This document shows, one piece after another, positions 2,976 through 16,239 of a stretch of 26,827 nucleotides of DNA (within the stretch, counting starts at the first letter, position 1; the number at the start of each line of letters is the position of its first letter). Source of the DNA: a virus. The stretch spans positions 1 to 26,827 of the IMG/VR virus record IMGVR_UViG_3300044633_000326. One strand, 5' to 3'. The notes under the pieces were generated by a model that saw nothing but the letters and a program-made list of their open reading frames with translations, made no database searches and was not told the DNA's origin. A program made the translations under genes and the position numbers.

Positions 2976-3428
2976 TTACGCTTGTTCAGTTTGTGCAATT
3001 GGTGGAACACATACTACAAAAGTTGCAGTAAATTTAACATCATCACCATCATCTGCTTGTACTCCAAAATCGCTAATAAATACAGTGCTTGTAGAAAGTC
3101 CACCATAATATACATCACCTGAAGTTGGAGTTGCTTTACCCATTTTAATAGTAAAAATAGTTTTAGCAGCGTGAGCAGCATACAATTGTTGGTAAGAATC
3201 CTTACTTGGACTTCCTGTTTCATCAATTGCGAATCCTTCACACTCAAAAGATTGTGAAAATACAGGACTTGGTGTGTATTCATTACCACACTTTGAAGTT
3301 GCATCAATCGTGTCGTTAGTTGATGTCAATGAGTTTGTCGTTAAACAAGCCACAGGTTTAAAAGTTGTACCTCCAGCTAAATCTGCTAAAAGGAGATAAT
3401 CCCTTGCTGATACTTTAGTTTCTGCCAT
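2976..3428 (-). CDS. Major tail tube protein
   Basis: A 150-residue protein, MAETKVSARDYLLLADLAGG..., that forms the hexameric rings of the non-contractile tail. It has the size and composition of TP901-1-like tail tube proteins: rich in T, S, G and V, with alternating beta strands and a C-terminal strand region (GDDVKFTATFVVCVPP). It contains two C residues in the N-terminal half and ends in an Ala/Gln tail. It lies between the tail terminator and the chaperones, exactly where the tube gene sits in siphoviruses. The start is ATG at 3428. A shorter same-strand ORF inside it (3014-3307) is a shadow with no recognisable character. Confidence 0.88.
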   Translation of the reverse strand: MAETKVSARDYLLLADLAGGTTFKPVACLTTNSLTSTNDTIDATSKCGNEYTPSPVFSQSFECEGFAIDETGSPSKDSYQQLYAAHAAKTIFTIKMGKATPTSGDVYYGGLSTSTVFISDFGVQADDGDDVKFTATFVVCVPPIAQTEQA

Positions 3429-10984: not shown

Positions 10985-12097
10985 TCACAAAGTTACTCCG
11001 TTCTTTTTGATTATCAATGATGGGTCAAGTTTCTTCATTCTATCAACAATAACTTGGCAGTACTTTGGGTCAAGTTCCATTATATAACCAACCCTTTTAA
11101 GTTGATGAACACCTGCTAAAGTAGAACCGCTACCACCAAATAAGTCAAGTATATTTTTTGCGTTTTTATGGTTACCTAATGCACGAGCAGATAATTCAAT
11201 TGGTTTTTGTGTTGGATGCATATACTTGCTATCCTTTTTAATTTCCCATAAATCGCTTTCGTTATTTATTCCTTCATCTAACTTACCTTCAAAAAAGCAA
11301 AATTCGTGTTGATGCCTATATCCTCTTCCTAAACCAAATACATTTTTAGCCCATACAATACAAGCATTTAATTCAAAGTGTTTTTGTAGTGTACCATAAA
11401 ACTTCCAATTGCACCATATATACTTTAATGGTATTTGTAGTGTATGAACAGTTTGAGCAAATTCTTCTATAAATTTATCAAAGTCTTCCGTTTTTAAGTC
11501 ATCATTTTCAATTACATCAAACTTACCACTTCTACCATTAAAACCTACATTGTAAGGTGGGTCTGTAAATAACATATCAGCCTTTTGTCCGTTCATTAGC
11601 TTTGCCACTTGGTCGCTATCCGTACTATCCCCACAAAGCAATCTATGTTCGCCTATCTCAAATAAATCCCCTAATACAATATCCGTTTCAGTTCCGCCAT
11701 CAGGTACTGCAAAGTCATCTTCTTCGGCTTCTAAATTGTTTACATCAAAGTTTGGTATGTCTAAACCCCATTCAGTAAGTTCTTCTACGTTCCAAGAATT
11801 TGCCAATTCATCCCAATCCCACTCCCCATATCCTACATTGTCCTTTACAATAAATTCCTTCTTTTGTTCTTCGGTTAAATCTTTCGCTTGTTTTATAGGC
11901 ACATCTTTAAGCCCAGCTTCAATACAAGCCTTTAATCTCATATTGCCACCTAATACCATATTGTTTTCATCAATTACAATTGGTCTTAATTCAAGCATTT
12001 GGGGGAAATCTTGGATTGACTTTACAAGTTGTTTAAACTTAATATCCTTTATAATTCTAGGATTGTTTGGGTTTGGTTTGATTTCGTTTATTAACAT
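10985..12097 (-). CDS. ParB-like domain fused to N6-adenine (or N4-cytosine) DNA methyltransferase
   Basis: A 370-residue two-domain protein. Residues 1 to about 100 are a ParB/Srx-like fold (LINEIKPNPNNPR, then VLGGNMRLKACIEAG with the GGxxR motif). From about 140 on comes a beta-class methyltransferase: MLFTDPPYNVGFNG carries the DPPY catalytic motif, which favours adenine-N6 methylation. HPTQKPIEL and DLFGGSGSTLAG give the SAM-binding motif, and a final ELDPKYCQVIVDR completes it. Such fusions occur next to phage terminase genes and probably protect DNA from host restriction; a link with packaging is only inferred. It starts with a TAATG overlap onto the upstream gene. All catalytic motifs are intact. 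Confidence 0.93.
   Translation of the reverse strand: MLINEIKPNPNNPRIIKDIKFKQLVKSIQDFPQMLELRPIVIDENNMVLGGNMRLKACIEAGLKDVPIKQAKDLTEEQKKEFIVKDNVGYGEWDWDELANSWNVEELTEWGLDIPNFDVNNLEAEEDDFAVPDGGTETDIVLGDLFEIGEHRLLCGDSTDSDQVAKLMNGQKADMLFTDPPYNVGFNGRSGKFDVIENDDLKTEDFDKFIEEFAQTVHTLQIPLKYIWCNWKFYGTLQKHFELNACIVWAKNVFGLGRGYRHQHEFCFFEGKLDEGINNESDLWEIKKDSKYMHPTQKPIELSARALGNHKNAKNILDLFGGSGSTLAGVHQLKRVGYIMELDPKYCQVIVDRMKKLDPSLIIKKNGVTL
10988..11017 (-). promoter_or_regulatory. Candidate Bacteroidota promoter before the terminase genes
   Basis: Minus strand: TTG (11017-11015), 19 nt, TAACTTTG (10995-10988), matching the Bacteroidota consensus. It lies in the last codons of the ParB-methyltransferase gene, about 26 nt upstream of the small terminase start, and would begin the late structural transcript. 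The same 8-mer also occurs inside coding sequence elsewhere, so chance is possible. Confidence 0.45.
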
Positions 12098-15427: not shown

Positions 15428-15459
15428 CAAAAATACTAAACATTAACCATATCTTCAAA
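15428..15459 (-). promoter_or_regulatory. Strong Bacteroidota-type promoter
   Basis: Minus strand: TTTG (15459-15456), 20 nt, TATTTTTG (15435-15428), a full match to TTTG-N19-21-TAnnTTTG. It begins inside the last codons of the cytosine methyltransferase gene. The predicted start, near 15421-15423, places the structured leader at the very 5' end of the transcript. Confidence 0.7.
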
Positions 15460-16239
15460 ACTTTGTATGGCTTTAAAAATCTCATAAGCAACCTGTGGCA
15501 CTACTGCGTTTCCGTAGGCTTTGATTGATTCATTTCGCCATTTAGGAAAGGTAATACTGTCCAATTTATAGGGAAACCCATCATTTCCTCTACAAATGAT
15601 ACTTTCAGTTTTCTCGTTGATTGTCCAACTTTTGTCAAATCTGCTGCCATTTGTCTCAAACTTTTTTGAAGCACTACTCCTTTTAGTAAATGTTTTTGTT
15701 TCCTTTTTTGATATGTTTCTATTTTTACTCCCGTATTCCAATCTTGAGCATTTGGAGTTGGCAATAAACCAAATTCTTTGTCTTTGATGTCTAGCTCCGA
15801 CACCTGCAGCTGGAATAAGAAACGTTTGGACTTCATAGCCTTGCCTTTCCAAGTCATCGCACACTTCGTTGAATACCATTCCCCCATTCCAACTAACAAG
15901 TCCACGAACATTTTCGCCAATAACCCATTTGGGTTTGACCTCTTTAATGCATCGTAACATATGTGGAAAGAGATGTCTTTCATCGGCTTTCCCAAGTCGC
16001 TTTCCTGCACTTGAGTATGGTTGACAAGGGAATCCTCCTGATAGTACATCAATTGTTCCTTCGTGAATAGTGAAGTTTGTTTTTGTGATGTCATTGTAAG
16101 ATTTTGAATTTGGGAAATGGTGGGCTAAAACTTTTTGACCAAATGGATTCCATTCGCAATGGAATATATTATCCCATCCCATCCACTCGGCTGCAAGGTC
16201 AAACCCACCTATTCCACTAAATAATGATGCGTGTGTCAT
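15436..16239 (-). CDS. dcm: DNA cytosine-5 methyltransferase
   Basis: A complete 267-residue C5 methyltransferase. Motif I is LFSGIGGFD (6-14). Motif IV is GGFPCQPYS (68-76) with catalytic C72. Motif VI is GENVRG near 110, motif VIII QRQRIWF near 155, and motifs IX/X are seen in GFPYKLD and AYGNAVVPQ near the C-terminus. The target-recognition region between VIII and IX is short and rich in K and S (SKKETKTFTKRSSASKKFE), so the recognised site cannot be read off. A likely role is to protect phage DNA from host restriction. It starts with an ATGA overlap. Another frame of the same DNA holds a long open ORF (15501-16094). Confidence 0.95.
   Translation of the reverse strand: MTHASLFSGIGGFDLAAEWMGWDNIFHCEWNPFGQKVLAHHFPNSKSYNDITKTNFTIHEGTIDVLSGGFPCQPYSSAGKRLGKADERHLFPHMLRCIKEVKPKWVIGENVRGLVSWNGGMVFNEVCDDLERQGYEVQTFLIPAAGVGARHQRQRIWFIANSKCSRLEYGSKNRNISKKETKTFTKRSSASKKFETNGSRFDKSWTINEKTESIICRGNDGFPYKLDSITFPKWRNESIKAYGNAVVPQVAYEIFKAIQSFEDMVNV
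15501..16094 (-). CDS. Nested ORF overlapping the cytosine methyltransferase (+1 frame)
   Basis: A 197-codon ORF starts at ATG 16094 and lies wholly inside the methyltransferase gene in the +1 frame. At roughly 7 percent stop codons per triplet expected in sequence this AT-rich, 197 open codons are very unlikely by chance. The product looks protein-like. It contains CAMTWKGKAMKSKRFLFQLQ, EFGLLPTPNAQDW and FVEEMMGFPINWTVLPF. From memory, 'LPTPxAxDW' and 'FVExMMGFPxxWT' recur in proteins encoded with or inside phage C5 methyltransferases. It may be an overprinted gene, a relic of a longer enzyme, or a shadow shaped by conservation of the host frame. No separate promoter or SD site is seen. Confidence 0.4.
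   Translation of the reverse strand: MTSQKQTSLFTKEQLMYYQEDSLVNHTQVQESDLGKPMKDISFHICYDALKRSNPNGLLAKMFVDLLVGMGEWYSTKCAMTWKGKAMKSKRFLFQLQVSELDIKDKEFGLLPTPNAQDWNTGVKIETYQKRKQKHLLKGVVLQKSLRQMAADLTKVGQSTRKLKVSFVEEMMGFPINWTVLPFLNGEMNQSKPTETQ

Follow-up and report, generated by a model that had tools for sequence, protein, structure and literature searches.

A cytosine methyltransferase locus in a tailed phage appears to encode one enzyme in two overlapping reading frames. We assign a probability of roughly 0.85 to the reading that a single C5-cytosine methyltransferase is specified here as two polypeptides, the frame-0 methyltransferase chain, which we call alpha, and the nested chain, which we call beta. 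The window (the whole stretch of DNA that was analysed, 26,827 nucleotides) is a complete IMG/VR virus record, and its portal, terminase, head-morphogenesis and tape-measure genes indicate a tailed phage. In the arrangement that we propose, alpha would be the catalytic chain, carrying motifs I-VIII and X in frame 0, and translation of beta, in the +1 frame, would initiate internally, from an ATG of its own located at alpha codon 49. Beta would supply a conserved N-terminal block, a variable target-recognition region with at least one LPTP unit, and motif IX, which would organise the small domain; the variable region, when read in the alpha frame, would be mainly linker. The two chains would then assemble into the active enzyme. 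The features of the locus are as follows.

15436..16239, minus strand: alpha, C5-cytosine methyltransferase chain, 267 aa (804 bp), with motifs I-VIII and X and without motif IX in frame
15501..16094, minus strand: beta, overprinted nested gene, 197 aa, ATG start, wholly within alpha in the +1 frame
16092..16094, minus strand: beta start ATG (alpha codon 49)
16125-16127, minus strand: in-frame TAG stop, 10 codons upstream of the beta ATG
16189..16230, minus strand: alpha motif I (ASLFSGIGGFDLAA), outside the overlap, placed by sequence and M.HhaI alignment
16012..16050, minus strand: alpha motif IV, catalytic PCQ (Cys72), placed by sequence and M.HhaI alignment
15760..15798, minus strand: alpha motif VIII (GARHQRQRIWFIA), placed by sequence and M.HhaI alignment
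15466..15525, minus strand: alpha motif X (IKAYGNAVVPQVAYEIFKAI), inside which beta ends, placed by sequence in comparison with canonical methyltransferases
15798..15878, minus strand: beta conserved N-terminal block W73...S99 (WYSTKCAMTWKGKAMKSKRFLFQLQVS), with nearly invariant columns
15621..15767, minus strand: beta variable region, residues 110-158, with the LLPTP unit; putative target-recognition region
15555..15620, minus strand: beta motif-IX-like segment (STRKLKVSFVEEMMGFPINWTV), placed by profile-profile alignment to canonical motif IX

The preliminary description had reported a 197-codon +1 reading frame nested in a cytosine methyltransferase, and it is indeed present at 15501-16094 on the minus strand, fully within 15436-16239. 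The next longest same-strand shadow ORF was located at 3014..3307 and has the 97 aa originally given for it; antisense ORFs in the window reach 166 aa. Near the terminase gene, positions 10985-12097 of the window encode a protein that matches ParB-like nuclease and DNA methyltransferase families.

Alpha carries motifs I, IV (PCQ), VI (ENV), VIII and X, which identify it as a C5-cytosine DNA methyltransferase. It matches PF00145 (E 1.2e-48) and phrog_363 (E 1e-71), and its alignment to M.HhaI covers residues 16-170; the best stretch against PF00145, however, spans only profile positions 1-215 of 324. In canonical enzymes, motif IX (consensus RrLTvrEaarLqgFPddf; RRLTPRECARLMGF in E. coli Dcm) lies between the recognition region and motif X, and the window alpha sequence has no motif IX ahead of its motif X. 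We scored this motif with a PSSM, having discarded an earlier classification by regular expression that missed many canonical enzymes. By this measure, motif IX was absent in frame from 182 of 184 alpha frames of the nested set, in which identical ORFs were kept once, so that the window alpha, identical to the protein of L001-L003, has no separate row. In a sample of PF00145 ORFs from the genomes of three taxa, 101 of 113 had motif IX in frame, and among these 101 there was neither a member of the nested family nor an open +1 frame.

The motif that alpha lacks is detectable in the nested frame. Frames 0 and +2 gave median motif IX scores of -22 and -23, respectively, as against -5.7 for +1. 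When the nested and canonical families were aligned profile to profile (hhalign), a single meaningful local match emerged (E 0.002), between nested residues 159-180 and motif IX. Remote members have a divergent form of the motif: only 25-28% of them exceeded the 95th percentile of shuffled sequence, as against 80% of the family members close to the window sequence. LLPTPNAQDW and FVEEMMGFPINW, which had been singled out beforehand, are both found in beta. Recognisable motifs had also been claimed for both frames over the same DNA (GNDGFP against MMGFP); MMGFP does fall within the motif-IX-like segment, but the frame-0 GNDGFP is not a canonical C5-methyltransferase motif. Residues 11-133 of beta match phrog_1008 (E 3.7e-18). 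This cluster, PHROG 1008, is named 'DNA methyltransferase', although catalytic motifs are absent from the nested protein, and the family description omits the overlap.

The association with the methyltransferase holds over a wide range of sequences. Searches with the nested protein (tblastn and viral-contig scans) yielded matches with 24-100% identity in 39 viral loci and 56 phage records; wherever a locus was inspected, this match stood at +1 to a methyltransferase frame. In homologues that range from near-identical to about 25% identical, the +1 frame has no interrupting stop of the kind that would have spoken against the gene. A profile search over 204 loci, which had been found by the nested peptide alone and with no methyltransferase required, gave 206 nested-frame ORFs, all overlapping a methyltransferase ORF at +1 (204/204 loci). 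Three further viral scans with remote members as queries showed the same +1 overlap in 219 of 221 remote viral loci; near-duplicate contigs make the independent events fewer than these counts, and retrieval relied for the most part on the motif-IX-like patch, so that members retaining this patch are favoured. Remote matches in gammaproteobacterial genomes are also nested at +1 in a methyltransferase. Two E. coli prophage methyltransferases (L221:2398-3135 and L222:2374-3135) carry the nested frame as well, and in the second an internal stop breaks both frames; a close relative is present in Salmonella phage S9-5. In Porphyromonas phage018a (L041:1269-2132), the nested ORF alone is annotated (1447-2061, hypothetical) and the overlying methyltransferase frame is not, which indicates that annotation pipelines keep one of two overlapping frames.

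Relatives with other arrangements connect beta to the rest of the enzyme. In five phage methyltransferases (L607, L617, L620, L630 and L639), motifs I-VIII, LPTP units, motif IX and motif X all lie within one ORF, unlike in the window; their recognition region and motif IX are homologous to the C-terminal half of beta, and the nested profile matches them with E about 1e-9 across the LPTP-IX region. An AF2 model of L639 (pTM 0.78) has pLDDT >90 in the motif IX region and low confidence in the LPTP stretch, and it superposes on M.HhaI residues 12-326 with Z 24.4 (254 aligned, rmsd 3.3). At L450:2293-3472, alpha stops right after motif VIII, and a nested ORF of 328 residues contains LPTP units, motif IX and motif X; from this order of motifs, the locus appears to be an AquI-like split that arose through a small rearrangement. 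Such natural REARRANGEMENTS, namely the single-chain enzymes and L450, link the nested frame with the portion of the enzyme that alpha lacks. In four other loci (L404, L409, L565 and L597), the alpha ORF crosses over to the nested frame at motif IX, and motif X then lies in a different frame; these are either real rearrangements or assembly errors. The LPTP units may be repeated recognition modules. Nested proteins contain from 0 to 5 LPT-type units, whose number correlates with protein length (r 0.67, 132 loci), and the alpha stretch opposite them is hydrophilic and poorly conserved.

Beta might instead be a genuine product of overprinting that acts independently, for example as a regulator, an inhibitor or an anti-restriction factor, and merely coexists with alpha. 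Beta alone gives no detectable fold match, and its N-terminal block (W73-S99) has no recognised counterpart in the single-chain enzymes. Searches of Pfam and NCBIfam with beta and of PDB sequences with the beta profile returned no match, and an AF2 model of beta alone (86-row alignment) was poor (pLDDT 63, pTM 0.32), with no Foldseek match. However, motif IX is absent from alpha and present in beta, the C-terminal half of beta is homologous to the recognition-IX region of single-chain methyltransferases, and the nested gene is always methyltransferase-associated over 425 loci. We regard a separate function as unlikely; these comparisons suggest that beta is most likely the small subunit of a split methyltransferase.

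The start of beta bears on how the second chain would be produced. Among Bacteroidota-like members, an ATG lies 5, 6 or 10 residues before the conserved QTSLF-type anchor in 100 of 100, and a Shine-Dalgarno signal is absent at the beta start in these 100; Bacteroidota initiate translation without Shine-Dalgarno sequences. At Firmicutes/Proteobacteria-like starts, a Shine-Dalgarno match of at least 5 bases occurs in 46%, compared with 8% of background positions. These observations weigh against a programmed +1 frameshift that would yield an alternative methyltransferase composed of alpha I-VIII and the beta recognition region with motif IX. Such a product is structurally conceivable, since a single ORF combines I-VIII with motif IX in L404, L409, L565 and L597, and the single-chain relatives have the same motif order. 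Nevertheless, it would lack motif X, because beta ends inside the motif X DNA. The nested ATG lies upstream of the DNA for the catalytic Cys72, so that a shift near the nested start would lose this cysteine, whereas a later shift would leave the conserved N-terminal half of beta, which overlaps motifs IV-VIII, untranslated and unused. Frameshifting, one of the two mechanisms first suggested, is thus very unlikely as the main one. The accompanying idea of an alternative C-terminus is improbable as a frameshift product but retains a correct element, in that beta contains a recognition region and motif IX that are absent from the frame-0 C-terminus.

The other suggestion, overprinting, was borne out: the nested frame is open, conserved in homologues and under purifying selection of its own, and the nested ORF is a genuine overprinted gene. 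At the window locus, the +1 frame runs for 207 codons between one stop and the next, whereas 20 stops fall in the third frame, and in homologous loci the third frame typically has 5-29 stops while +1 is open. The overlap would be expected to contain 4.4-9.0 stops, and when synonymous codons of the methyltransferase were permuted, a run as long was seen once in 1000 trials for the window and 0-3 times in 1000 for each of 32 homologues.

Substitution patterns give a consistent picture. Among alpha codons with an identical amino acid, synonymous differences amount to 15.6% in the overlap as against 31.9% and 27.2% in the non-overlapping ends, and the third-position share of change in the alpha gene is 0.40 in the overlap as against 0.68 and 0.55 in the ends. 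When changed codons were randomised with the alpha protein kept, beta similarity dropped in 13 of 13 comparisons (z 3.5-6.5). Purifying selection in +1, named at the outset as a deciding point, was thereby detected beyond the demands of frame 0, although the +1 excess was only weak under a stricter null in which nucleotide differences per codon were also fixed (z mostly about 1-2, with a range of -0.2 to 2.9); +2-frame controls under this null were near zero.

Along the gene, constraint switches between the frames. In alpha codons 49-162, conservation is higher in alpha (0.83-0.96) than in beta (0.71-0.86), whereas in codons 163-217, the variable region, it is higher in beta (0.53-0.95) than in alpha (0.42-0.76) in 8 of 8 pairs; in the five closest pairs, beta reaches 0.85-0.95 against 0.64-0.76 for alpha. 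Read in the alpha frame, the variable region has few hydrophobic residues (26%, compared with 43% for alpha I-VIII and 31% for beta; 132 loci). A conserved methyltransferase could also cast a shadow ORF by chance, one that resembles other shadow ORFs through frame-0 conservation alone, but this explanation of the nested ORF is highly improbable. Some conservation is passive, since part of LLPTP is read from the DNA that encodes alpha 'FIANS' behind motif VIII, and the signal under the strict matched null is weak, but codon choice fails to explain the open frame, the 101 canonical methyltransferases with in-frame motif IX have +1 stops and no nested match, the variable region is more constrained in +1 than in frame 0, the drop in synonymous change is limited to the overlap, and the single-chain enzymes read the homologous segment in frame.

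The split enzyme that we propose resembles a known system in layout, as judged by analogy: the window pair would correspond to M.EcoHK31I, a split C5-methyltransferase, with an overprinted beta. In M.EcoHK31I, the gene of the small chain overlaps that of the large chain in another frame. This enzyme (YGGCCR, E. coli; Lee, Kam and Shaw 1995) is a two-polypeptide C5-methyltransferase for which both chains are needed; the large chain has motifs I-VIII and X, together with the predicted recognition domain, and the small chain has motif IX (PMC3404938). Motif IX is thus on a separate small polypeptide in both cases, the comparison being one of described layouts alone. The recognition domain, by contrast, is on the large chain in M.EcoHK31I, whereas the evidence in the window puts the recognition region in the nested frame, and the context is restriction-modification there and a phage here. 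A search of E. coli genomes for the M.EcoHK31I sequence with distant DNA queries turned up only prophage methyltransferases. M.AquI is also a two-subunit C5-methyltransferase (PMC3404938), with its natural split in the variable region; L450 shares its order (I-VIII, then recognition region with IX and X), whereas in the window motif X remains on alpha and beta is fully nested. Internal genes at the same +1 position inside a C5-methyltransferase are present in the Paenibacillus larvae phages Lily (gp63, 'g62 internal gene') and Bloom (gp57), annotated as hypothetical or as a second methyltransferase, and the records examined propose no function for them. Our literature search found no description of the conserved overlap or its meaning. 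What appears to be new is the breadth of the arrangement, the frame-switching constraint and the location of the recognition region in the nested frame.

From these sequence comparisons, we infer that beta would be translated and would bind alpha, that the pair would methylate DNA, and that methylation may help the phage escape host restriction. A broader view, which we advance tentatively and would place somewhat short of even odds, is that the overprinted alpha/beta pair could be the normal architecture of short phage C5-methyltransferases over several bacterial phyla. Recognition and motif IX would then reside in a hidden +1 gene, constraint would alternate between frames, the number of LPTP units (0 to 5) would set single or multiple specificities, and small indels would swap motifs between frames.

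The same nested pair is found in hundreds of other phage and bacterial sequences. Among the short cytosine methyltransferases of this type that we encountered, most carry annotations as complete single enzymes, yet a core motif is apparently encoded out of frame. If our reading is true, cloning of the annotated ORF alone, or codon optimisation, would leave many phage and prophage methyltransferases inactive or misread, and the gene that determines their specificity would be one that is dropped by annotation pipelines. The locus offers a long and widely conserved overprinted pair in which constraint switches frames within one gene, and the proposal is open to a concrete biochemical test.
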